This document shows, one piece after another, positions 1,096 through 44,058 of a stretch of DNA of 44,963 nt (positions are counted from its first letter, which is position 1; each line of letters opens with the position of its first letter). The notes beneath the pieces were generated by a model. It was given only the letters and a program-made list of their open reading frames with translations. It had not been told where the DNA came from and ran no database searches. The stretch is from a virus: the IMG/VR virus record IMGVR_UViG_3300049002_000024, positions 1 to 44,963 of that record. One strand, 5' to 3'. The position numbers and the translations under genes were made by a program.

Positions 1096-1303
1096 GCTCC
1101 TCCTCGTCGTACTCCTCGACGATCTCGAACATGCGTTCGCGGATCTTCCAGAGGAAGGCCGCGGCCTGACTGATCTGCTCCTCAAGGCCTTCCTCGTGCA
1201 TCGTGCGGACGCACGGCACCAGATCGGCGAGTTGCGCGATGGCCACGTCGAGGTGTACTGACGCCCGCCCCGCGCACCAGATACGCTCCTCGTCGGGATT
1301 CAC
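1088..1303 (-). CDS. Small hypothetical protein with acidic C-terminus
   Basis: This 71-residue protein starts at a GTG that overlaps the upstream TGA as GTGA, and its own stop overlaps the next ATG. The body is amphipathic helix, and the tail is a run of Glu/Asp. A longer frame opens upstream (ATG at 1552), but that part overlaps a better frame (1300-1527), so I take the short start. Unknown function. Confidence 0.55.
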   Translation of the reverse strand: MNPDEERIWCAGRASVHLDVAIAQLADLVPCVRTMHEEGLEEQISQAAAFLWKIRERMFEIVEEYDEEEHE

Positions 1304-1527
1304 GGCCGCACTTGCCAGCACCACACGCCGCACGACGGCACGGGGATCCGATGCACGACGCGCGGCCACCATGGCTCGTGCATCGCTCGCGCGATCGCCT
1401 CTCCCTTGTCCTCGTTGCGCAGCCTCGGCAGGCGCCGCAGCTCGTGCCCCGGGTGCTTCATGCGAGACGGTATCGGCATGCCCGTGAACGTCGTGGGCGG
1501 CGGTATGCGCTTCCTCAGGTTCCCCAT
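1300..1527 (-). CDS. Small basic hypothetical protein
   Basis: This 75-residue protein, with basic and proline-rich N-terminal half and Trp-rich C-terminus, has strong GC preference at third codon positions over its whole length. The ATG at 1527 has a GGAAAGG Shine-Dalgarno about seven bases upstream. Its TGA overlaps the next GTG. No domain recognised. Confidence 0.55.
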   Translation of the reverse strand: MGNLRKRIPPPTTFTGMPIPSRMKHPGHELRRLPRLRNEDKGEAIARAMHEPWWPRVVHRIPVPSCGVWCWQVRP

Positions 1528-1548
1528 CGTCGCGCCTTTCCGGTGCAC

Positions 1549-1857
1549 TCATGCGAGCACCCCAATCAACCGTAGCGCCTCGTCCGGCGACCGGACAACC
1601 GCAACATCGCCACCACGCCAGCCGTCATGCCAGGTCACCTGGACTTCATTGAGCTTGCCGCGCTTGCTCTTGACCTCGAGAAGGAAGGTCCGCCGTCGGA
1701 AACCGACGAGGAGATCGGGGCCACCGGGAATCGAGAGCAGGGTGACGCTCGCGCCGCACAGGGTGAGCGCCTTGACGATCTCGCGCTCGTTGTCGTCACG
1801 GCGCCGCCCGTCGCGCCCCGCGTGCTTGACCGGCCGTGCATCGCGCCTGACCGTCAT
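1549..1857 (-). CDS. PD-(D/E)xK nuclease of VRR-NUC / Holliday-resolvase type
   Basis: The 102-residue protein has the core of a small PD-(D/E)xK nuclease: GGPDLL with D48, EVK with E61 and K63, and Q73 followed by W and H. VRR-NUC proteins with this length are frequent in phage replication modules and act on branched DNA. The ATG overlaps the stop of the preceding small gene as ATGA. Lying beside a methyltransferase and replication genes, it probably serves replication intermediates or packaging. The exact substrate is unknown. Confidence 0.75.
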   Translation of the reverse strand: MTVRRDARPVKHAGRDGRRRDDNEREIVKALTLCGASVTLLSIPGGPDLLVGFRRRTFLLEVKSKRGKLNEVQVTWHDGWRGGDVAVVRSPDEALRLIGVLA

Positions 1858-2024
1858 TGCATCCTCTCGCACTGGCGACGCAGTGCATCGAGCCGATCGC
1901 AGACGTAGCAACGCCGACAGCCATCGCGCATGGCAAGCCACGCCAGCTCGCAGGCACGATGCCGCGTCGGTTGCTGGCACAGCGTGCGCCCGGGCAGCTC
2001 GCCATACAGGTGAATCACACGCAT
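1854..2024 (-). CDS. 56-residue Cys-rich microprotein
   Basis: A short protein fills the gap between the methyltransferase and the nuclease. Its ATG shares one base with the methyltransferase stop (TGATG), and its TGA overlaps the nuclease ATG. The C-terminal half has several cysteines, including a CxxC pair, suggesting a small metal-binding fold. Function unknown. Confidence 0.55.
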   Translation of the reverse strand: MRVIHLYGELPGRTLCQQPTRHRACELAWLAMRDGCRRCYVCDRLDALRRQCERMQ

Positions 2025-2806
2025 CACGCGACTCCTTCGAAGAGCAAACGCTGACGCCCCTCCGGTCGCGCATCGTCCCCTGCGATGCGCCGGAGTGCCG
2101 TGCGGTAGTGCGCACCGTCGATTTCCCAACCGACGAACCTGCGACCGAGCGCCTTGCACGCGACACCCGTGGTACCGCTGCCCGCGTAGGGGTCACACAC
2201 CAGCTCGCCGCGGTGCGACACCAGCTCGACGAGATCGCGCATGAGCGGCAATGGCTTCGCGGTGGGGTGCACGCCCGTCTGCGCGCGGCGATGCTCCACC
2301 CACTCAGGCGCATGCTTGTAGTTGACTGCCTTCCCACCGCCCGGGCACTTCGGCGCGCCCTTGCGCTTCGCTTGCGCGAGCACGATCGTCTCGTACCCCT
2401 GACCGGGCCATCGTCCATGCAGCGATGGCATCGCATCCGGCTTGCACCAGACGAGCGTGCGCCGGTACCTCATGCCGCCATCCTCGAGCGCGGCACGCCA
2501 GAGGTGCACCGCTTCGATCTGACAGAACACTACCGCCCATCCGCGGCAGATGCGCCCGATCTGCGCGGCGACGTCACGCCGTTGCTCTGGCGTGATCGCA
2601 CTGAACTCGAGGGGCGCTGGCGTGGCGACCTTGTCAGCCTCGCCGCGGTCGCGCGCCTTGCGCCATCCGGCCACCTTCGTGCGCCGTTGTTTGCTGTGCG
2701 CCTCCGCCTCGTACGGCGGATCGGTGATGACGTGATCCACGCTCTGCTCCTCGAGCCGCGCGAGTCCCTCGACAGGGTGCAGGCAGTCGCCGTGGTGCAT
2801 CGTCAC
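2024..2806 (-). CDS. Phage DNA methyltransferase (DPPY, beta-type order)
   Basis: The 260-residue protein carries the catalytic motif DPPY (residues 29-32) near the N-terminus and the AdoMet-binding motif DPYAGSGTTG near the C-terminus (about 205-214). That is the order seen in beta-class N6-adenine or N4-cytosine methyltransferases. I chose the GTG at 2806: it overlaps the upstream TGA and has GGTGGA six bases before it. No restriction enzyme is evident next to it, so it is probably an orphan protecting phage DNA or affecting regulation. The target site cannot be read from sequence alone. Confidence 0.85.
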   Translation of the reverse strand: MTMHHGDCLHPVEGLARLEEQSVDHVITDPPYEAEAHSKQRRTKVAGWRKARDRGEADKVATPAPLEFSAITPEQRRDVAAQIGRICRGWAVVFCQIEAVHLWRAALEDGGMRYRRTLVWCKPDAMPSLHGRWPGQGYETIVLAQAKRKGAPKCPGGGKAVNYKHAPEWVEHRRAQTGVHPTAKPLPLMRDLVELVSHRGELVCDPYAGSGTTGVACKALGRRFVGWEIDGAHYRTALRRIAGDDARPEGRQRLLFEGVA

Positions 2807-2973
2807 AGTGAGTCCACCGGCTTGATGGTGCGCGCTACAGTGTCCGAGATCCGGACAACCTGGCAAGAGTCCATCGCGAGCAAGATCCACTCATGGCGAA
2901 ACAGATCATGCTCCTCGACGAGAAACACGCGGCGACTGCCCCGCGGTTGCACGAGGTCACCGACGCGGATCAT
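2803..2973 (-). CDS. 56-residue hypothetical protein
   Basis: This short gene begins at an ATG that overlaps the upstream stop (ATGA) and ends in a TGA overlapping the methyltransferase GTG. Its N-terminus (MIRVGDLVQPRG) and strand-rich pattern suggest a small beta-barrel fold like those of short phage proteins starting VGDLV. Function unknown. Confidence 0.6.
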   Translation of the reverse strand: MIRVGDLVQPRGSRRVFLVEEHDLFRHEWILLAMDSCQVVRISDTVARTIKPVDSL

Positions 2974-3221
2974 GCGCCCCTGCCTGCGAGCGCGTCACGC
3001 ACCACCGATGCCAAGAGGTGTATCACAACCTGCGCGAGCAAGTTGTACGGGTCAATCGCGTCCTCGAGCGCCGTCCGCCACAGCACGCGATACGCGTGGT
3101 TCTGGAGATCGTCCTGGCCACGGATAGGCATCGTGACGTGCACGTCAAGCGTTCCCAGAACGGGGTTGTCCTCGACGCTCACGCGCAGCTTCTCGAGGCA
3201 CTGTAGGTCGGTCGATCTCAC
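2970..3221 (-). CDS. Hypothetical early protein
   Basis: An 83-residue protein with GTG start overlapping the upstream stop. It is mixed alpha/beta with a helical C-terminal half, and I recognise no motif. It is co-transcribed with the helicase loader. Confidence 0.55.
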   Translation of the reverse strand: MRSTDLQCLEKLRVSVEDNPVLGTLDVHVTMPIRGQDDLQNHAYRVLWRTALEDAIDPYNLLAQVVIHLLASVVRDALAGRGA

Positions 3222-8241: not shown

Positions 8242-9219
8242 ATGGCTGACGAGACGAACATCGCGCGCCCATCGCGCGCCGCGTACGACGCCACCGGTAC
8301 CGCGATCACGCGCTCGGGATTCGGCGAGACGGCGCTCGAGCAACGTCGCGAGCTGCAGTCGACCGCGCTTGCCGAGCGCACCCGGGCCGAGATTCAAGCC
8401 ATGTTCATCGTGGCGCTGCAGCGGCCCCGCAGCCTCGACGAATTCCGGCGGCGCGTCCTCGACCACTGCAAGCGGCCCGGCTTCGCGATGACGGCGGAGT
8501 ACGCCAAGCCGATCGGCTCGAGCAAGGTCAAGGGACCGAGCATCCGCTTTGTCGAGACTGCGATCCAGGAATTCGGCAACGTGCGTCCGACGTCGTCGGT
8601 GCTCTACGACGATCACGACAAGCGCACCATCCGCGTGAGCGTGACCGACCTCGAGCGGAACGTCAGCTACGACGACGAGATCGTGCTCGAGAAAACCGTC
8701 GAGCGGCGGGACCGACGCGGCTACGACGTACTCAGTAGCCGCACCAACAAGGATGGTGACGTCGTGTTCATCGTGCGCGCGACCGAGGACGATCTCCGCT
8801 CGAAGCAAGGCGCGGCCGTGTCGAAGACGCTGCGCACGCTCGGGCTGCGCATCCTGCCAGCGGACATCGTGGCGGAAGCGATGGACGAGTGCCGTCGCAC
8901 GCGGCAGAACAAAGACGCGCAGGACCCGGACGCAGCGCGGCGCGCAGTTGTCGACGCGTTCGCTCCGCTCGGGGTGATGCCGCGCGATCTCGATGAGTAC
9001 CTCGGCCACCCCCTCGCTGCGTCGTCACCGGCGGAGCTAGACGAGCTGCGAGTCGCGTTCGCGACCGTTCGCGATGGAGAGACACGATGGGTCGATCTCG
9101 TCGAGGCGAAGCGCGCGGAACGCGGCGAGGTAGAGCAAGTCAGCAAGCCGGGGGAGACTGCAGCGGCCAAGATTCAAGCCCGCATCGCCAGCAAGCGAGG
9201 GAAGGAGCAAGCGCCATGA
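8242..9219 (+). CDS. Probable single-strand annealing protein partner of YqaJ
   Basis: The 325-residue protein contains GPSIRFVETAIQEFGNV and long strand-helix stretches (RVSVTDLERNVSY, EIVLEKTVERR). The GPSIRxxE motif is found in proteins encoded beside phage YqaJ-type exonucleases. By position this should be the RecT/Rad52-type annealing partner. The C-terminal 80 residues are charged and probably flexible. The subfamily is not certain from sequence alone. Confidence 0.6.
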   Translation: MADETNIARPSRAAYDATGTAITRSGFGETALEQRRELQSTALAERTRAEIQAMFIVALQRPRSLDEFRRRVLDHCKRPGFAMTAEYAKPIGSSKVKGPSIRFVETAIQEFGNVRPTSSVLYDDHDKRTIRVSVTDLERNVSYDDEIVLEKTVERRDRRGYDVLSSRTNKDGDVVFIVRATEDDLRSKQGAAVSKTLRTLGLRILPADIVAEAMDECRRTRQNKDAQDPDAARRAVVDAFAPLGVMPRDLDEYLGHPLAASSPAELDELRVAFATVRDGETRWVDLVEAKRAERGEVEQVSKPGETAAAKIQARIASKRGKEQAP

Positions 9220-9515
9220 CGTACCAGCCGGCGCAGCTGCCGCTCCTCTTCGCGCGCACCAGCGACACCAGCGCCGCCGCGGCGATCTCGATGTCGCGCG
9301 ACGCCCCTCGCCTCCGCGAGCTGGTGCTGTTCACGGTACGCGCCTCGGGTACGCGCGGCATGACGTGCGAGGAGATTGAGACGCACCTCGACATGCGGCA
9401 CCAGACCATCAGCGCCCGCGTCAACGAGCTGCGCAACGGAGAGTGGATCAAGGATAGTGGCGCGCGCCGCTACACGCGCAGCAACCGCAGGGCTGTGGTG
9501 TGGGTGGCGTCATGA
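9216..9515 (+). CDS. Winged-helix HTH protein
   Basis: A 99-residue protein whose second half is a winged helix: GMTCEEIETHLDMRHQTISA recognition region, RVNELRNGEWI, and a wing rich in Arg. The ATG overlaps the previous TGA. Likely a DNA-binding modulator of the early operon. Target unknown. Confidence 0.65.
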   Translation: MTYQPAQLPLLFARTSDTSAAAAISMSRDAPRLRELVLFTVRASGTRGMTCEEIETHLDMRHQTISARVNELRNGEWIKDSGARRYTRSNRRAVVWVAS

Positions 9516-9724: not shown

Positions 9725-9996
9725 CCCGCGGCCGGCCCCGACGCGTGGACCTTGACGACGTGGTGCGCGCGGCGACCGAGCGACCACCACCGCCCGTGTC
9801 GGACGATCCGCGCCATCGCTTGATCCCGCTCGAGGGTCCGGAGATGGACGCGACGCACTTTGGCCGGATCTCGAGCGTGCACATGCGGCGCCGATGGATC
9901 CGTCAGGGCAAGCTGCAATGCGTACGCATCGGGCGCCAGACGTTCCTGACCGAGGCGGCGATCGCAGCGTTCATCGAGCGCGGTGGCTCGCAGTGA
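9721..9996 (+). CDS. Excisionase-like HTH (MerR-type winged helix)
   Basis: A 91-residue protein with a disordered N-terminus and an excisionase/HTH_17-like end: ISSVHMRRRWIRQGKLQCVR, then IGRQTFLTEAAIAAFIERG. The pattern of helix, W-x-x-x-G-K/R-L wing and EAAIxxF is typical of phage Xis and related DNA-bending proteins. It could be the recombination directionality factor for the integrase at 22481, although it lies 12 kb away. Confidence 0.6.
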   Translation: MTRGRPRRVDLDDVVRAATERPPPPVSDDPRHRLIPLEGPEMDATHFGRISSVHMRRRWIRQGKLQCVRIGRQTFLTEAAIAAFIERGGSQ

Positions 9997-10259
9997 GCCG
10001 GTACGACTGGCACCGCCCTAATGCGGACTGGGAGCCGTACACGCTCTCGCGTGCGATGAACACGCTCGGGCACAACCTGGCCATCGGCGGCGCGCTCTTC
10101 GAAGCGGTGCGCCGCGCGCGCTTCCGCTGTCCCGCGTGCGGCCTCGAGCCGTGCGACGGCCGGCATCCTGGACTCGTCGGGCCGTGCTGCGTATGCTGCC
10201 CAGTGCCCCCTGTGGAACGGACACCGGAGACGGTGACCGGTGCCGACGTCCCCCCATGA
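9993..10259 (+). CDS. Cys-rich zinc-finger-like protein
   Basis: This 88-residue protein carries CPAC, then C-x12-CC-x2-CC, a dense set of probable metal ligands in the C-terminal half. GTG overlaps the upstream stop. It is last in the tightly packed recombination operon. Function unknown. Confidence 0.5.
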   Translation: MSRYDWHRPNADWEPYTLSRAMNTLGHNLAIGGALFEAVRRARFRCPACGLEPCDGRHPGLVGPCCVCCPVPPVERTPETVTGADVPP

Positions 10260-10407: not shown

Positions 10408-11295
10408 ATGGGGATCACACGAGGGACCGTTGTGCTCGCGCTCCTTGCGGGGTGCGGCACGGTAACAGCGGAGGCGCCCGACGCGTTCATCCGCGAGGGT
10501 GATGACATCGACGCACGCACGGCGGGATTGCCCGACGCGTCGGGCTCGACGCCGGAAAACGGCAACGGTGATGGAGGGACACCGACGGCGGGAATGGTGC
10601 CGGTAGCAGGCGGGAGCTACTGGCAAGGGTGCACGGTGACGGATCCGGAGATCTGCGGCTACGGCGCGACGCCGTACCATCAGGTGACGCTCGATGACTA
10701 CTGGATCGACCGCACCGAGGTAAGCCAAGCGGCGTACGCGGCGTGCGTTGACGCGGGCGATTGCCCGGCGCCGGAGGCCATCAACCGTGAGAGCAAAGCG
10801 CCGGTCGTCAGTGTGTCGTGGCCCGACGCGCTCCGCTTCTGTCAGTGGCGCGGCGCGCGCCTGCCGACGGAAGCGGAGTGGGAGCGCGCGGCGCGCGGCA
10901 CGGACACGCGGCTGTATCCGTGGGGGGATCAGGCGCCGAGCTGCGAGGTGATCTACGGCGCCTGCCCCGGCGTGGTCGCCACCTACGACGTGGACATGCC
11001 GCAAGGCGCGAGCCCGGTCGGTGCCCTGAACATGGCGGGCAACGTCGAGGAGTGGATCGGCGACTGGTACGAGGAGAGCTATTACTCGCACGCGTCGGAG
11101 GTGCACAACCCGCGCGGCCCCGCGACCGAGCCGGTGATGCCCGGTGGCGCACGCAAGGTGCTGCGCGGTGGCTCGCTCTTCGATGGCACCCGGACGCAAC
11201 GGTACTGGCGAGCGCACTACCGCACGAGCGCTGCGCCGTCGACACGCTCGAACTACCGCGGCTTCCGCTGCGCCTACAGCGAGGTGACGCCGTGA
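10408..11295 (+). CDS. FGE-sulfatase-fold (SUMF1-like) lipoprotein
   Basis: A short signal peptide ends in the lipobox LAGC (13-16) and is followed by a flexible Asp/Gly-rich linker. The rest has the formylglycine-generating-enzyme fold: MVPVAGGSYWQGC, DYWIDRTEVSQAAY, RLPTEAEWERAARG, YPWGD, NMAGNVEEWIGDWY, KVLRGGS and final YRGFRCA. Such domains occur in enzymes and in C-type-lectin-like binding proteins, including targets of diversity-generating retroelements. No reverse transcriptase is present here. As a surface lipoprotein it may be a lysogenic-conversion factor. I infer no catalysis. Confidence 0.8.
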   Translation: MGITRGTVVLALLAGCGTVTAEAPDAFIREGDDIDARTAGLPDASGSTPENGNGDGGTPTAGMVPVAGGSYWQGCTVTDPEICGYGATPYHQVTLDDYWIDRTEVSQAAYAACVDAGDCPAPEAINRESKAPVVSVSWPDALRFCQWRGARLPTEAEWERAARGTDTRLYPWGDQAPSCEVIYGACPGVVATYDVDMPQGASPVGALNMAGNVEEWIGDWYEESYYSHASEVHNPRGPATEPVMPGGARKVLRGGSLFDGTRTQRYWRAHYRTSAAPSTRSNYRGFRCAYSEVTP

Positions 11296-11450
11296 GCGTC
11301 CGCGTCGGAACGCCCCGCGTGCGGCGTCGATGGGCGGACACGGGTCTCGTCATCGACGTGCGCGACTTTGGCGTGGTGCTCACGTACACCCCGGACGAGG
11401 CGACCAGCCTCGCACAGGCGCTGCTAGACGCAGTTCGAGGGCCGCGATGA
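11292..11450 (+). CDS. 52-residue hypothetical protein
   Basis: GTG overlaps the stop of the FGE lipoprotein gene, and the TGA overlaps the next ATG. The product has a strand-rich centre (TGLVIDVRDFGVVLTY) and a helical end. Unknown function. Confidence 0.55.
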   Translation: MSVRVGTPRVRRRWADTGLVIDVRDFGVVLTYTPDEATSLAQALLDAVRGPR

Positions 11451-12553
11451 GTGGCGCGTACGATCGCGCGGCGACCGCGCAGGTACCGCAGCACGCGCCA
11501 CAGGAGGCGCCACAGCCGACGCCGGGTAAGCGGGCCTTGACGGACAAGATGACCCGTCGCGAGGCGCCAGCGGGCAAGGAGAGCGCGCTCGAGCGTGCTG
11601 CTGCGCGGTGGATGCCAACCGAGCTGCGACATCAGCAAGAGGAAAGAGCCCAGAACCGGATCCACTTCGCACACCAGAACTACAAACTCGCGCTCCTCGG
11701 CAAGCGCCTCGAGCTGCTGTTCTCTCACTCGTCGGGCTGGGGTTTCGCCGCCGAGCTGGTTTTCGGGCTCGTCAGTTACAACGCGACCTTCGCGCTCGTC
11801 GGCGCGTTCGCTCGCCTGCGCAAGCGCGCGGGCCGCGCCATCGTCGAGGCGGAGTGGCGCGCCGCGCAGGGCGGTGACGCCGCGCTGTCGATGTTCTACA
11901 CCATCGCCGAACGCGTGAGCGTCGAGCGCGTGCGCGACACCCTCTCGCACCTCGGCCGCTCGGTGCGCTCCGGGATCAAAGAGAAGACGAAGCACCTCGC
12001 GCCGCACGCCGATAGCAAGCAGCAGCTTATCTCCCTCGTCCACAACGAAGCCGACCACTACTCACTCGCGCTTCTCGACATGCTGCCGCTCCTCGACGAC
12101 GACGACTTGATCTTGCTGAATGAGGCATACGACACCGACGCGCACACGTTCGAGACGTACGTGCGCGCCGTCGACGATCTCATCGCGCGCTACGAGTCGC
12201 AGGGAATCGAGAGCATCGGGCAGCCACACGGCGCGACCGAGCACCGCGGCCGCAACGCAGAGCCGGGGTTGCCGACGCGACTCGAGGCTGTCCGCTTCGT
12301 GTACGGCAAGCGCGAGCGCGTGGCACTCGTCGAGCGCGTCGTCGGCACCGAGGAGAAAGCGCCGCCCGTCGACGCGCACTCGCTGCCGCTGTGCCACTGG
12401 TCGCACTGGGTCGACGAGGATCTCAGCGGCGCCGCGGCTGGCGTGTACGAGCACCGAGTCGGCTCGGTGATGTCCATCGACGTTGAGGCTGGCGAGATAC
12501 CGCCAGCGTGGGCACCGCAGGTATCGGTATGGATCGCGGGGGTGACGCCATGA
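11447..12553 (+). CDS. Unknown 368-residue protein
   Basis: The N-terminal 50 residues are low-complexity and contain TPGKRALTDKM, which resembles a PGKRTLT-type motif seen near the N-terminus of some proteins associated with contractile injection systems. The middle (about 85-220) is helical with hydrophobic stretches (GWGFAAELVFGLVSY, ALVGAFARL) that could be membrane-associated. The C-terminal part is mixed. No enzymatic motif recognised. The motif comparison is from memory and weak. Confidence 0.5.
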   Translation: MSGAYDRAATAQVPQHAPQEAPQPTPGKRALTDKMTRREAPAGKESALERAAARWMPTELRHQQEERAQNRIHFAHQNYKLALLGKRLELLFSHSSGWGFAAELVFGLVSYNATFALVGAFARLRKRAGRAIVEAEWRAAQGGDAALSMFYTIAERVSVERVRDTLSHLGRSVRSGIKEKTKHLAPHADSKQQLISLVHNEADHYSLALLDMLPLLDDDDLILLNEAYDTDAHTFETYVRAVDDLIARYESQGIESIGQPHGATEHRGRNAEPGLPTRLEAVRFVYGKRERVALVERVVGTEEKAPPVDAHSLPLCHWSHWVDEDLSGAAAGVYEHRVGSVMSIDVEAGEIPPAWAPQVSVWIAGVTP

Positions 12554-13056: not shown

Positions 13057-13259
13057 GTCTACAGCATCTGCCGGACCGCGATGTCCGGTGCAGTAACGTC
13101 CGATGCGCCGAGCGGGACAGGAAACCACTCTACGTCGTGATCGTCGGCTGGCGCACGGTTCCCGGCGAGCCACCATTCGTACAGGTGGTGTTGTGCAAGG
13201 GGTGCGCTGAATCCTGGGACATCCATGACAAGGCCCCCATCGTCGAGGTGACGTCGTGA
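13053..13259 (+). CDS. Small zinc-binding-like protein
   Basis: The 68-residue product has C-x4-C near residue 12 and C-x2-C near residue 50, with strands between, consistent with a treble-clef or ribbon metal site. ATG overlaps the previous stop. Unknown function. Confidence 0.5.
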   Translation: MSLQHLPDRDVRCSNVRCAERDRKPLYVVIVGWRTVPGEPPFVQVVLCKGCAESWDIHDKAPIVEVTS

Positions 13260-13507
13260 GCCGCGGCAACACCACCGCGCCAATGCGCGGCGACCCCAGC
13301 GGGCCGTCGGAGATCACGCGGCCGGAGTACCGCGCGGCCATCGCGCTCCTTGCCGACATGATGACGCTCCTCGACCAGCATCATCTCGCAGACGTCTGCC
13401 TACGCGCGCTCGATGGCTGGCCACGTGAACAGATCCGCGCAGGGTCGGCGCTCGCCAGCGCCATCCGCTTGCTCCGTCCAGAGATGCCACGAGGCACTGA
13501 GCCCTAG
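13256..13507 (+). CDS. Helical hypothetical protein, last gene of rightward operon
   Basis: An 83-residue protein, GTG start overlapping the previous TGA. The central part is an amphipathic helical region with His/Leu. The stop codon lies inside the hairpin of an intrinsic terminator. No family recognised. Confidence 0.5.
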   Translation: MSRGNTTAPMRGDPSGPSEITRPEYRAAIALLADMMTLLDQHHLADVCLRALDGWPREQIRAGSALASAIRLLRPEMPRGTEP

Positions 13508-13518
13508 GCTCTTTTTTT
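13499..13518 (+). terminator. Intrinsic terminator
   Basis: GAGCC (13499-13503), loop CTA, GGCTC (13507-13511), followed directly by seven T residues. It closes the rightward operon and overlaps its last stop codon. The stem is short but GC-rich. Confidence 0.65.
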
Positions 13519-13531
13519 GGCCCCGAGGGGA

Positions 13532-13548
13532 GGTCGGGCCGCCCGACC
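13532..13548. other. GC-rich hairpin
   Basis: GGTCGGGC (13532-13539) and GCCCGACC (13541-13548) form a near-perfect inverted repeat without a T-tract. It may belong to the 5' region of the precursor-peptide gene or reinforce the terminator. Confidence 0.4.
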
Positions 13549-13615
13549 CCGTACATGCGGCACCCGAGGATGCGACGCACACCGCGTCGCTCCGTCGGGC
13601 GCTAGGAGCATTTGC

Positions 13616-13819
13616 GTGAAGAGAAGCAAGAGGCTAACAATCAAGCGCACCACCGTGGCCAACCTCAGCGAGGTGCGCGGCGGAGCGGCGGCGGACAGCG
13701 CGACGTCAATCCTATGCACGTGGACCGTGAATCCATACTGTCCGACGCAACGGATGCAGTGCAGCGACCTGTGGACGTCGGAGCTGTCCGCCGAATACCG
13801 GTGTTGGCCTGAGCCGTGA
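13616..13819 (+). CDS. Putative class I lanthipeptide-like (RiPP) precursor peptide
   Basis: The 67-residue peptide starts at GTG with AGGAG seven bases upstream. Its N-terminus reads as a leader: KRLTIKRTTVANLSEVRGG, with the Lys-Leu-x-(I/L)-(K) pattern, a VANLS segment like the FNLD-type box, and a terminal Gly-Gly. The following about 44 residues are rich in Thr/Ser (with four Cys), as a lanthionine-forming core would be. No modifying enzyme is in the window, so host enzymes or genes outside would be needed. The alternative is an unrelated small secreted peptide. Confidence 0.6.
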   Translation: MKRSKRLTIKRTTVANLSEVRGGAAADSATSILCTWTVNPYCPTQRMQCSDLWTSELSAEYRCWPEP

Positions 13820-13901: not shown

Positions 13902-13944
13902 TCGTACGATTTCCCTTGCGGTTCGTACGACGATACGCTATTGT
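13902..13944 (+). promoter_or_regulatory. Promoter-operator P1 (TCGTACGA type)
   Basis: TCGTACGA at 13902-13909 and 13923-13930 flank a -35 box TTGCGG (13916-13921). After a 17-base spacer comes TATTGT (13939-13944). Only nine bases separate the -10 from the ATG, which predicts a leaderless mRNA. Confidence 0.75.
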
Positions 13945-13953
13945 CTTTTCACG

Positions 13954-14316
13954 ATGACGAACGCGGACGTTACCCGGGACGAATCAGAGACCACCATCAC
14001 GCTCGAGCGCTCCCTCGGGCTCGTCGACGAGAAGGGGCGCGCCGTCGGCGGCTTCGCGTCCATTAGCAAGGAGCCACGGTACCGGGGCTCATGGGTCGCC
14101 AAGTATGCGCCCGACGGCACCTACCTCGAGACGGTACACGTGCGGGGGGAGATCCTCGGGTACGAGGTCGAGATCCGGGCGACGCGTGACGGCGAGACGT
14201 ACGGCGCGAGCCCGCGCAGCACGTACTACGGGACTCCCGAGGCAGCGCTCGCCGCCGCCATGAAGGGGCTCGCCGCGCAAGCGAAGCGCTACGCAAAGAA
14301 GTACGCCGCGAAGTGA
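13954..14316 (+). CDS. Array gene 1, hypothetical 120-residue protein
   Basis: The protein has an acidic N-terminus, a beta-rich middle (WVAKYAPDGTYLETVHVRGE, then GYEVEIRATRDG) and a Lys/Ala-rich C-terminal helix. It is the only gene between promoters P1 and P2. There is no Shine-Dalgarno, in agreement with a leaderless transcript. No family recognised. Confidence 0.65.
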   Translation: MTNADVTRDESETTITLERSLGLVDEKGRAVGGFASISKEPRYRGSWVAKYAPDGTYLETVHVRGEILGYEVEIRATRDGETYGASPRSTYYGTPEAALAAAMKGLAAQAKRYAKKYAAK

Positions 14317-14347
14317 CATCTCGCAGGACCCGTGTCGTCGTAACGCG

Positions 14348-14390
14348 TCGTACGATTTATCTTGCGATTCGTACGACGCTCGTGTAGAGT
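14348..14390 (+). promoter_or_regulatory. Promoter-operator P2 (TCGTACGA type)
   Basis: TCGTACGA at 14348-14355 and 14369-14376, -35 TTGCGA (14362-14367), 17-base spacer, -10 TAGAGT (14385-14390), ATG nine bases later. Operator spacing is 21 bases, as in P1. Confidence 0.75.
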
Positions 14391-14399
14391 CTTCTAACG

Positions 14400-14630
14400 A
14401 TGACGAACACGGCGACCCTCGCGACCCTCCCCGTCCTCGCCGGTGCCTACCGGAAGAAGCTGTCCGCCACCGCCCTGCTCACCCACACGGTCAACCTCGC
14501 GACCGGCGCCGTCCTCTGCACCCGGGTCAACCCGGACCACATGGCGGATGAGTACGCGCACACCGAGGAGGAAGCGGCCGCGGCCCCCACGTGTAAGCAG
14601 TGCCGAGCGCGCGACCCTCGGTTCGTCTGA
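14400..14630 (+). CDS. Array gene 2, small protein with CxxC
   Basis: A 76-residue protein, single cistron downstream of P2. It begins MTNTATLATL, similar in first residues to array gene 1 (MTNADV), and ends with CKQC. No Shine-Dalgarno. Function unknown. Confidence 0.6.
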   Translation: MTNTATLATLPVLAGAYRKKLSATALLTHTVNLATGAVLCTRVNPDHMADEYAHTEEEAAAAPTCKQCRARDPRFV

Positions 14631-14646
14631 AGGGGGCGGGGCGGCG

Positions 14647-14690
14647 TCGTACGATTGCGCTTGCATCGCGTCGTACGAGTCTGTTACACT
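14647..14690 (+). promoter_or_regulatory. Promoter-operator P3 (TCGTACGA type)
   Basis: TCGTACGA at 14647-14654 and 14671-14678, -35 TTGCAT (14661-14666), -10 TACACT (14685-14690) with an 18-base spacer. Here a leader of about 35 bases with AAAGGA precedes the ATG, unlike P1 and P2. Confidence 0.7.
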
Positions 14691-14730
14691 GGACTGGGGT
14701 GCGCCCCGCGAAAAATCAAAGGATTTGACG

Positions 14731-15058
14731 ATGCCCGCTAAGATTTCCGACACCTGCAAGATCGCTCTCGGCAAGCACCCGGAGCGCGACATCTGGTTCG
14801 TCCTATGGACGGAGACGCTCACCGGTCGGCGTCCTCGCGCTCTGTCCGTCCGCCTTCTGCGACCGGGGCGACGCGTTCCAGGCTGCCGTCAACGTCGCGC
14901 GCGACCTGTCCGGCGACCCTCGCCGCATGCGGAAGCATGCCAAGTGGCTCGACGTGTCGCAGCACGGCATCACGTCGGACACGCGCGCCGAAGCGATTAG
15001 CGGCGACGGCTCGCTCTTCGAGCGCGCGTGCACCGAGCTGCGCGCTTCCGTGTGGTGA
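14731..15058 (+). CDS. Array gene 3, interrupted by an apparent +1 frameshift
   Basis: Translation from the ATG (AAAGGA seven bases upstream) gives a sensible N-terminus (MPAKISDTCKIALGKHPERD, then IWFVLWTETLT). It turns into a basic shadow after about 14824. The adjacent frame continues with normal coding character (VGVLALCPSAFCDRGDAFQA to a TGA at 15056-15058). Skipping one base near 14824 joins them into a protein of about 108 residues. This may be a sequencing error, a real mutation or programmed shifting. Function unknown. Confidence 0.45.
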
Positions 15059-15075
15059 TCCGCTGATCCGCTAGC

Positions 15076-15128
15076 TTGCGTCTCGTCGTACGATTCTAGT
15101 TGCGTCTCGTCGTACGATACTCTAGAGT
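15076..15128 (+). promoter_or_regulatory. Promoter-operator P4 (TCGTACGA type, partly duplicated)
   Basis: TCGTACGA at 15086-15093 and 15110-15117, -35 TTGCGT (15100-15105), 17-base spacer, -10 TAGAGT (15123-15128). The 19-base stretch TTGCGTCTCGTCGTACGAT occurs twice, at 15076 and 15100, a local tandem duplication. Seven bases separate the -10 and ATG. Confidence 0.75.
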
Positions 15129-15135
15129 CGTTTTC

Positions 15136-15360
15136 ATGATGACGACGCGCACCGGCCGCCCCTCCGCTTCTAAGAAGGCCGCCAAGGCCTTCCTCACCCT
15201 CGCGCTCACCCACGTGGAAAGCGCGAGCATTCGCGCCTGGGCCACCACCGCCCACAACGGGCCGCTCTTCCTCGCCGAGGCGCAAGAGCGCCTCCGCGTC
15301 GGGCGCACCGATGCCACCACGTTCGCCACAGCGATCGTGTGCTTAGCCATCGGGCTCTAG
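15136..15360 (+). CDS. Array gene 4, small basic protein
   Basis: A 74-residue protein with a basic N-terminus and a helical segment KKAAKAFLTLALTHVES. The RRKFVALLTLALRPG segment of array gene 5 is similar (LTLAL plus basic N-terminus), so genes 4 and 5 may be diverged duplicates. Leaderless by promoter spacing. Confidence 0.6.
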   Translation: MMTTRTGRPSASKKAAKAFLTLALTHVESASIRAWATTAHNGPLFLAEAQERLRVGRTDATTFATAIVCLAIGL

Positions 15361-15390
15361 GCCCCACGGGGGCGCTACCCCGCCGCGTCC

Positions 15391-15438
15391 CCGTACGACG
15401 ATTTGCCGCTTGCACTCGTACGACGAATCATCTAGAGT
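15391..15438 (+). promoter_or_regulatory. Promoter-operator P5 (TCGTACGA type)
   Basis: CCGTACGA (15391-15398, one mismatch) and TCGTACGA (15416-15423) flank TTGCAC (15410-15415). After 17 bases comes TAGAGT (15433-15438), and ATG follows nine bases later. Confidence 0.75.
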
Positions 15439-15447
15439 CTTCTAACG

Positions 15448-15681
15448 ATGCCGACGACGCCCCGCACCCGCCGCAAGTTTGTTGCTCTCCTGACCCTCGC
15501 GCTCCGCCCCGGCACCCCCGGCGAAGCGACCGCGGCATGGCTCGCGGTCGCGCGCGAGGGAGCCCGACTCGCGTACCCCCTCGACACTCTCTACGACGCG
15601 CACAAGGCGACGCTCGTTGACGAGCTGGGGATCTGGCCGCTCGTCGTCGACGCCTACTACGACGTCGCTGGCGTCGCCTGA
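15448..15681 (+). CDS. Array gene 5, small helical protein
   Basis: A 77-residue protein: basic N-terminus, LTLAL-containing helix, then an acidic helical half. Probably related to array gene 4. No known family. A strong hairpin follows the stop. Confidence 0.6.
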   Translation: MPTTPRTRRKFVALLTLALRPGTPGEATAAWLAVAREGARLAYPLDTLYDAHKATLVDELGIWPLVVDAYYDVAGVA

Positions 15682-15697
15682 CACCACCCCGCAAACC

Positions 15698-15717
15698 GGG
15701 CCCCGATGTCGGGGCCC
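15698..15717 (+). terminator. Strong hairpin after array gene 5
   Basis: GGGCCCCGA (15698-15706) and TCGGGGCCC (15709-15717) form a 9-bp stem with a two-base loop, followed by CCTTCCTC. The U-tract is poor, so it may be a partial terminator allowing some read-through. Confidence 0.5.
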
Positions 15718-15741
15718 CTTCCTCACCCCCGGAGGTCTCTC

Positions 15742-15939
15742 ATGTCCAAACCTACGACGTTCACCGCGTGCCTCGCCGCGCTCACGCTCGACGCGTTCCC
15801 GACCCTAGGGCTCGACTACAGCAACGCCGTACCCTGCGGCGAGTGCGACCGCTGCAAGGCGCGCGCTGCCGCGAAGGCCCGACGGTTGTGCCCCGTCGAC
15901 GGATGCCCGCCATGCCCGTTCGACGGGGGGTGCTCGTGA
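15742..15939 (+). CDS. Cys-rich zinc-binding-like microprotein
   Basis: GGAGG lies six bases before the ATG. The 65-residue product has CGECDRC and CPVDGCPPCPFDGGC motifs, a dense metal-ligand cluster in its second half. Stop overlaps the next GTG. Function unknown. Confidence 0.6.
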   Translation: MSKPTTFTACLAALTLDAFPTLGLDYSNAVPCGECDRCKARAAAKARRLCPVDGCPPCPFDGGCS

Positions 15940-16139
15940 GCAAGCTGCTGTCCCCTGCGATGATCACGGTGCTGCGCGCCGCGGCAGCGAGCAAGTACGG
16001 AACGGTGTCCCCGGGCAGCCTACACGGCAGCCGTCAGACGATCGACGCACTCGAGCGCCGCGGCATGCTCAAAGCAGTGTGGCGCCACGGATTCCGGCAG
16101 TACGGGATCACCGATGCCGGCCGCGCAGCGCTCGCGTAA
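15936..16139 (+). CDS. Winged-helix-like DNA-binding protein
   Basis: A 67-residue protein: MITVLRAAAAS, SPGSLHGSRQTIDALERRGM, then YGITDAGRAAL. This matches a minimal winged helix of the phage type that ends in a ITxxGRxAL wing. GTG overlaps the upstream TGA. A candidate regulator within the array. Confidence 0.6.
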   Translation: MSKLLSPAMITVLRAAAASKYGTVSPGSLHGSRQTIDALERRGMLKAVWRHGFRQYGITDAGRAALA

Positions 16140-16155
16140 AGCGCCGCGTCGTCAC

Positions 16156-16173
16156 TTGCGTCTCGTCGTACGG
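16156..16173 (+). other. Decayed TCGTACGA promoter remnant
   Basis: TTGCGT (16156-16161) followed by TCGTACGG (16166-16173) resembles the array promoters, but no -10 box or gene follows at the expected distance. The 16140-16272 interval has no ORF that I support. Confidence 0.45.
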
Positions 16174-16272
16174 GGGTCTGGCACGTCGAACCGACGTCAT
16201 GTTCCACAGCGCGGTTGACCGGTGTACGCGATCACCGCAAAAAGGCCGCGCCGTTCTGCAGGGTTAGTATCG

Positions 16273-16315
16273 TCGTACGATTCTCGTTGCACTCGTCGTA
16301 CGAGTCGTGTAGTCT
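16273..16315 (+). promoter_or_regulatory. Promoter-operator P6 (TCGTACGA type)
   Basis: TCGTACGA at 16273-16280 and 16296-16303, -35 TTGCAC (16287-16292), 17-base spacer, -10 TAGTCT (16310-16315), and ATG nine bases later. Confidence 0.75.
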
Positions 16316-23736: not shown

Positions 23737-24174
23737 ATGCGCATCATCCTCGCCGCCGTTCTCTTCCTCTCCCTCGTCGCTTGTGCCAGCGACGACGAGC
23801 CTACGCCCCTCGACATGCCCGACGCGGCACCGCCCGACGCGGGCATCGACGCCAAACCGGAGAGCGACAACGCGCGCGCTCTGTTCACCGCCGAGTGCGA
23901 GATGATCGCGACCTGCGCGCTCCTCTACGATACCCCGCAGTACCGGCCGCACGTCGATGCGTGTGTGCGTGGCGCGATGCAAGCACACTGCGACTACCTC
24001 GGCGCCGACGCGTGCAACGAGCCGATCAACCCGACGATCGCCGCGCTCGCGGAGGAGTGTATCGCGGCGTTCAATACGATCGCCACTGAGGTGCGCGTTG
24101 AACACAACCGCGACAAATGCGAAGCGATGCCATACCCCGCGCACTGTCGTACGACGCTCTTCCCTCGTCGCTAG
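23737..24174 (+). CDS. Cys-rich lipoprotein next to int
   Basis: A signal peptide ends in lipobox LVAC (13-16) and is followed by a DMPDAAPPDAG linker of a kind frequent in myxobacterial lipoproteins. The mature domain has eight or so cysteines (CEMIATC, CVRGAMQAHC), likely disulfide-bonded. D at +2 is seen after two residues. Location beside int suggests a lysogenic-conversion (moron) gene. Its stop overlaps the converging amidase stop. Confidence 0.7.
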   Translation: MRIILAAVLFLSLVACASDDEPTPLDMPDAAPPDAGIDAKPESDNARALFTAECEMIATCALLYDTPQYRPHVDACVRGAMQAHCDYLGADACNEPINPTIAALAEECIAAFNTIATEVRVEHNRDKCEAMPYPAHCRTTLFPRR

Positions 24175-43101: not shown

Positions 43102-44058
43102 TCAGGCGACGATCGAGCCGACGATGGTGCGCCATTCGAAATAACCGACGCCGTACCGTGCCTCGGCGCCGAACCAGTACTCGCCGCGCTGAAAGCGAAT
43201 GAGCGAGTCATTGGTCCCGCCGCGCTCGCCGGTGATCGCGCTGGTCGTGATCTCCTGACGCATCTGGAAGATCATCGGCTTCACCGGCGCACTCAGATCG
43301 GCGAGGAACCAGTAGTCATCATAGGCGCCGCGCAGGTACGGACTGACCAGCACCTTGAAGCGATTGCGATGGATATTACTCGCGCCGTTCTCGAGGTACT
43401 CCGCCGCCATGAGGCGCTCGGCGACGAACTGCAGCTTTGGCCCGACGATGAGAGTGGTGCCGCCGAGCGCGAGCACATCCTTGCCGTCGTACGACGTCAT
43501 GCCGCCGAGCATCTGCGTCGCGGTCTCGAGCGCGACACCATCGACGTCGAGAGGAATCGCGAGGCGGTTGCTCTGCACTGCCGCGGTGCCGGACACCTGA
43601 TGCGTCGTCGAGAAAAAGAACGCGTTGTCATACGCCATGCCGCTGCCGACCTCGGGATATGCGGTCCCGCCGAAGCCATTGAGGAGGAGCTTCGCCGCCA
43701 GCTCGGTGCGGTGCTTGCGCGCGGTGTCCGCCAGCGTGGCGATCTTGACGCGCAACATGTCAGTGCGGCCATCCTCCAGCTCGTTCTGGTGCACCCGGAT
43801 GCCCGACGCCCAATCCTTGTTTTCGATGCGCAGGCGGAAGCGCTTGACCATGCCGAGCTGACGGTCGCCGATCCACTCGACGAAACCAGGCATGTCGCCG
43901 AGCCACTCCCACTCCTCCGCCGTGCTCGTGGAGTTGACGGTGGTAAAGAGTTGCTCGATGGGGTCGGGTCCGGTGGTCTCGAGGGAGCCGAGCACCGCAG
44001 CGTGGAATCCGACGCGGGCCGCTTCGATGTCGTCACCAGTGAAAGCGTTCATCTTCAT
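43102..44058 (-). CDS. Major capsid protein (Mu gpT-like)
   Basis: The 318-residue protein shows TAEEWEWLGDMPGFVEWIGD, RFRLRIENKDWASGIRV, LADTARKHRTELAAKLLLNG, YDGKDVL and VSPYLRGAYDDYWFLADL, features of the Mu-type major head subunit. It sits between the decoration-like gene and gp35. Confidence 0.85.
   Translation of the reverse strand: MKMNAFTGDDIEAARVGFHAAVLGSLETTGPDPIEQLFTTVNSTSTAEEWEWLGDMPGFVEWIGDRQLGMVKRFRLRIENKDWASGIRVHQNELEDGRTDMLRVKIATLADTARKHRTELAAKLLLNGFGGTAYPEVGSGMAYDNAFFFSTTHQVSGTAAVQSNRLAIPLDVDGVALETATQMLGGMTSYDGKDVLALGGTTLIVGPKLQFVAERLMAAEYLENGASNIHRNRFKVLVSPYLRGAYDDYWFLADLSAPVKPMIFQMRQEITTSAITGERGGTNDSLIRFQRGEYWFGAEARYGVGYFEWRTIVGSIVA

Follow-up and report, generated by a model that had tools for sequence, protein, structure and literature searches.

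A candidate class I lanthipeptide-like precursor gene in a Mu-like phage record without lanthipeptide-modifying enzymes

The window analysed here is the whole of IMG/VR record IMGVR_UViG_3300049002_000024, with a length of 44,963 bases. Its gene content, as assigned with Pfam and PHROGs, indicates a Mu-like contractile-tailed temperate phage, including a gpT-type major head protein, baseplate J, sheath and tape measure proteins, a RecE/YqaJ-like exonuclease, a tyrosine integrase, a DNA methylase and HTH regulators. The record stops inside the head genes, and the phage is therefore incomplete. It is without a close relative within the databases searched: no sister phage was detected in IMG/VR with the small peptide described below or with genes 11447-12553, 8242-9219 and 13954-14316 as queries, while a degenerate head-protein scan of IMG/VR gave at least 80 loci (best identity 34% among the matches listed) and the head protein had no match in the genome contigs searched. 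The Mx8 terminase, used as a query of the genome contigs and aimed at Myxococcota, detected 11 loci, none of which is from Myxococcota by title. The Asp/Ala/Pro-rich lipoproteins (10432-11295 and 23737-24174) and a very weak match to SinM (16.6 bits against a cut-off of 250) are what we take to be hints of a Myxococcota host.

Between a terminator-like hairpin and an array of palindromes, the window carries a small ORF with the translation VKRSKRLTIKRTTVANLSEVRGGAAADSATSILCTWTVNPYCPTQRMQCSDLWTSELSAEYRCWPEP (67 residues), hereafter the window peptide (Table 1). A preliminary description of the locus had proposed a 67-residue peptide gene with its own good ribosome-binding site, located between a terminator and the array. 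All of these points were reproduced, the plus-strand translation being as described, the Shine-Dalgarno sequence lying 7 nt from the start codon, and the position being defined by the hairpin with its seven T upstream and by the first palindrome copy at 13902 downstream. The closest upstream in-frame stop is at 13505. The predicted fold of 13490-13640, which includes the G+C-rich, possible 5' untranslated region, has a free energy of -69.7 kcal/mol (z -3.28), and a promoter scan upstream of the ORF detected no sigma-70-type promoter.

Table 1. Features of the window and of the records used for comparison
Record	Feature	Position	Strand	Basis or remark
Window	Terminator-like hairpin (13499-13511) and seven-T run	13499..13518	+	Ends the upstream gene 13256-13507
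Window	G+C-rich structured region, possible 5' untranslated region	13519..13603	+	Fold
Window	Shine-Dalgarno AGGAG	13604..13608	+	7 nt 5' of the GTG start
Window	Candidate GG-leader class I lanthipeptide-like precursor ORF	13616..13819	+	67 codons and stop, GTG start
Window	Putative leader, residues 1-23, closing with Gly22-Gly23	13616..13684	+	Sub-threshold NF038153; alignment with G653 leader
Window	Leader motif L7-T-I9-K-R11-TTVAN-L17	13634..13666	+	LxLxKx5L, I replacing L and R replacing K
Window	Putative core, 44 residues	13685..13816	+	4 Cys and 10 Ser/Thr
Window	Lipoprotein-like phage protein with FGE-sulfatase domain	10432-11295	+	PF03781, 8e-45
Window	gpT-type major head protein	43102-44058		Pfam/PHROGs
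G653 (IMGVR_UViG_2100351011_000002)	Canonical class I lanthipeptide precursor, 65 aa	L166:8700-8897	-	NF038153, 39.7 bits
G112 contig 68	Cellular precursor	9957-10034
G112 contig 68	LanC	8394-9497
G112 contig 68	LanB	1208-3178
G180 contig 22	Cellular precursor	519808-519885
G180 contig 22	LanC	518246-519313
G180 contig 22	LanB	514839-516788
G112 contig 134	Further L1a precursor (L102)	15153-15227

The ORF is probably a real gene, although it is not among the 73 genes called by a simple gene caller. Its G+C content by codon position is 0.485/0.606/0.803, where the called genes average 0.681/0.508/0.820; the third-position value is close to this average and supports the frame, while those at positions one and two are atypical. 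The codon score is marginal (+2.7 nats, versus +12.6 for the adjoining upstream gene of 83 codons).

The preliminary description had placed a class I-like leader in the segment VANLSEVRGG. The resemblance to a leader stands, but it is LTIKRTTVANL...GG as a whole, not just VANLSEVRGG, that is diagnostic, and the class is that of the GG-type class I leaders of Bacteroidetes (L1a) and not the classical FxLD type. According to PMC7268733, a number of Bacteroidetes class I precursors share the leader motif LxLxKx5L, many of these leaders close with Gly-Gly, and a C39 protease is often present in the cluster. The leader of the window peptide has the same spacing with two conservative changes. When the peptide was compared with the whole NCBIfam library, as the preliminary description had suggested for leader models, the only match was to the class I lanthipeptide model NF038153 (lant_leader_L1a), whose positions 8-23 were aligned with residues 4-19 at 11.7 bits and E=0.22 for that library; the curated cut-off is 22 bits, and the peptide thus falls below the family threshold. 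When all six frames of the record were searched with NF038153, the peptide was the single match (12 bits, E=0.0168), and no match at E<=10 was detected in 50 other virus records, taken from the 80 loci of the virus sample. Pfam and PHROGs gave no match to the peptide, and the AlphaFold2 model from the single sequence was uninformative (mean pLDDT 51.5).

Behind the Gly-Gly, the Ser/Thr/Cys-rich core of the preliminary description was found as stated. At the Cys frequency of the window, four or more Cys in 44 residues are expected with P of about 0.0016, and such a stretch is also present in 5 of the 73 called genes. By composition, the Cys and Ser/Thr content is sufficient for the predicted formation of rings. 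The window peptide shares with the GG-leader class I precursors (NF038153; PMC7268733) a short basic N-terminus, the pattern L-x-[LI]-x-[KR]-x5-L, the Gly-Gly, and a core of comparable length that contains Cys and Ser/Thr. It differs from them in its sub-threshold score, in being phage-borne with neither LanB nor LanC in its record, and in the spacing between the conserved Leu and Gly-Gly, with 4 residues instead of the 9 found in L101, L102, L108 and the phage precursor of G653 described below.

The frequency of such a pattern was determined for small ORFs of 40-130 aa, one per stop, by requiring a relaxed form of the motif, then Gly-Gly, with three or more Cys behind it; the residue classes and the spacing (2-14) were set wider with the peptide already known. 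The window contained one such ORF among 455, which is ORF 13616-13819 itself, and the 80 virus loci (1.26 Mb) contained none among 9,179, with four carrying the motif without the Cys. One of 282 small ORFs was detected in G653 and two of 589 in the genome-locus set, both of the latter being NF038153 members. Triplet-shuffled windows gave 0.19 motifs each, and 0.027 when the Cys were required too. With a home-made profile of four leaders the window peptide scored 5.8 bits, a value matched by 22 of 50,000 full shuffles, by 59 of 50,000 shuffles of residues 2-23 only, and exceeded by random six-frame viral segments (up to 7.4 bits). With three leaders the peptide was aligned in a different register, and 13 and 32 of 20,000 shuffles reached its score. 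Overall, under the home-made profiles a shuffle reaches the score of the leader with a frequency of about 4e-4 to 1.6e-3. The motif-plus-Cys test, with its widened classes and spacing, is stronger evidence against chance than these small profiles. Judged from such sequence comparisons, the resemblance of the leader is unlikely to be due to chance, though this is not proved.

The window peptide had no homolog in IMG/VR, among phages (the best match, E=0.5, falls within a tail protein) or among plasmids (best E=4), and matches in 297 genomes of the phylum of a Holophaga-titled genome stayed at chance level (best E 0.003). NF038153 members above the cut-off were detected in 2 of 149 genomes of that phylum, in none of 297 genomes from the phylum to which L004 belongs and in none of a set of 12 genomes or records. 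A leader pattern with the short spacing matched four loci in IMG/VR, of which three have a stop before the Gly-Gly and one falls at offset 61 of a 222-aa frame. The canonical-leader pattern, used without Gly-Gly, matched 41 loci and is no census because it required K, not R, at four places; 12 of these loci have a stop in the match, and among the 29 open ones a single locus, that of G653, reaches Gly-Gly in a small ORF.

The phage G653 (38,759 bases) is different from the window phage. Its gene set is siphophage-like, and Pfam matches among 67 called genes include RecT, a phage replication family, a tape measure protein, a capsid scaffold and a DNA methylase. Its precursor is preceded by AGGAGG before an ATG start, within a locus of 43% G+C, and is not matched at E<=1 by any phage or plasmid sequence. 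No lanthipeptide enzyme was detected among the called genes with Pfam, and PF04738 and PF05147 found neither LanB nor LanC in any of the six frames of the record. At the level of sequence, G653 shows that a class I precursor can stand alone in a phage, its enzymes being absent from the record. The G653 precursor and the window peptide are both phage-borne, with their own ribosome-binding sites and without lanthipeptide enzymes in the record, and the sequence TVANL is common to the G653 leader KKLVLKKITVANLQDMEMNGVHGG and the window leader KRLTIKRTTVANLSEVRGG. Local alignment of the two leaders gave a score of 49, reached by none of 20,000 shuffles, a comparison that is not fully independent because G653 was found by a pattern fixing K, L and T positions; the scores of three cellular leaders against the window leader were reached by 7, 31 and 41 of 20,000 shuffles. 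In contrast to the window peptide, the G653 precursor has a canonical full-length leader and scores well above the family cut-off, and its core gave no confident alignment with the window core. The model TIGR04149 for rSAM-modified RiPPs also matches the G653 precursor, at 19.5 bits, which is below its cut-off of 25.

The absence of modifying enzymes from the window, claimed in the preliminary description, was borne out by Pfam searches of 74 ORFs (the 73 called genes and ORF 13616-13819) and by six-frame searches with PF04738 and PF05147, none of which gave a match; the record, which is incomplete, thus has neither LanB nor LanC near the peptide. The cellular L1a precursors of G112 and G180 lie beside both enzymes. 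A further L1a precursor of G112, L102, lies on a contig of 17,365 bases without LanB or LanC, the sole LanB and LanC matches of this genome being on a different contig; in this draft assembly the separation may not reflect the true linkage, and modification in trans within the cell is possible. As a possible modifying enzyme, the FGE-sulfatase-domain protein of the window was rejected, because its N-terminus is lipoprotein-like, RGGSLFDG apparently occupies the site of the cysteines of active FGE, and the window peptide contains CPTQR and not CxPxR, the FGE target motif. The FGE-domain protein is possibly displayed on the cell surface of the lysogen.

Based on these observations, the best single reading is that the window peptide works like a lanthipeptide precursor, though below the family cut-off. 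We favor, with a confidence just short of evenly balanced, a small phage gene for a divergent precursor of the class I lanthipeptide type, with a leader of the GG (L1a) kind, that would serve as a host-modified substrate. The phage would contribute the substrate alone, and the LanB dehydratase and LanC cyclase of the infected or lysogenic host would recognise LTIKRTTVANL in the leader and join Ser/Thr and Cys of the core by thioethers; a C39-type peptidase/exporter of the host would then cleave after Gly-Gly, and the product could be an antibacterial or exclusion factor for the lysogen. Alternatively, the peptide may compete with a host precursor for the host enzymes as a decoy. Modification in trans itself, which we infer, is the most likely mechanism, at about even odds, and expression, modification, export and activity of the peptide are all predicted. 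With G653 at hand, the window peptide is a plausible, if unproven, divergent case of an enzyme-less phage precursor. The broader view that more than one phage lineage carries stand-alone class I precursors for host LanB/LanC, yielding a lysogen lanthipeptide or a decoy, with the window peptide as a variant of shortened leader, is possible but doubtful.

Under the main null explanation, the ORF borders an operator-rich region of small genes and encodes an ordinary small phage protein with Cys and an unrelated function, the likeness of its N-terminus to a leader having arisen by chance. This null has a real but minor share in our judgment, in agreement with the sub-threshold family score, the modest profile statistics, the lack of homologs, the presence of further small Cys-rich ORFs in the window and a per-window chance probability of about 0.02-0.03, which is not small because the finding was selected from the whole window; the coincidence of motif, Gly-Gly position and Cys-rich remainder, not seen once among the small ORFs of the virus loci, argues against it. 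A GG-type leader is also found in more than one family, and the sub-threshold match of the G653 precursor to TIGR04149 fits a peptide acted on by another enzyme class, such as radical SAM, or exported unmodified, in which case the four Cys could make two disulfides. This is improbable, given that the lanthipeptide leader model is the only NCBIfam match of the window peptide and that LanB and LanC lie beside the cellular precursors with this type of leader. Equally improbable is a relict precursor, with a shortened leader and its modification lost, or a spurious untranslated ORF: the marginal codon score, the atypical G+C at codon positions one and two, the GTG start, the short leader and the lack of a promoter-like site point in this direction, whereas the open frame, the third-position G+C of 0.80 and the good Shine-Dalgarno sequence point the other way.

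A known RiPP gene on a temperate phage is that of sublancin, a glycopeptide and not a lanthipeptide, which is carried by the prophage SPbeta in a cluster with its own enzymes. Sublancin and, on the favored reading, the window peptide are both encoded by phage-borne RiPP genes, but the latter is without enzymes. SPbeta is the subject of a review (PMC8270828). PMC10023795, which cites Dragos 2021, describes Streptomyces prophages that carry putative clusters for class I lanthipeptides; as proposed for the window, RiPP genes are carried there by temperate phages, but as clusters with their own enzymes rather than as a precursor alone. PMC12715929 and PMC11118758 are concerned with clusters of the host that lie close to defence systems or share their expression with phage genes, and PMC12360287 describes host lanthipeptides that inhibit phage transcription as an anti-phage defence. 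No title or abstract on a stand-alone phage-borne lanthipeptide precursor was found in the literature searched, which covered few subscription papers and preprints, so that this absence is weak. Since precursors are usually sought beside enzymes, mining for clusters overlooks viruses carrying only the substrate. Should host enzymes act on such precursors in trans, a gene of 200 bases would let a phage alter the natural-product output of its host, and a natural counter-measure to anti-phage lanthipeptides would exist.

The palindrome of the downstream array, TCGTACGA, is present in 15 copies in the window (0.43 expected), of which 11 lie within 13902-16303, mostly in pairs 21-24 bases apart and immediately 5' of small ORFs. 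This array looks like a shared operator/promoter array, and the palindrome is absent upstream of ORF 13616-13819. At 14731-15074 (plus strand) the third-position GC signal shifts frame near 14800, like that of one small gene broken by a frameshift.
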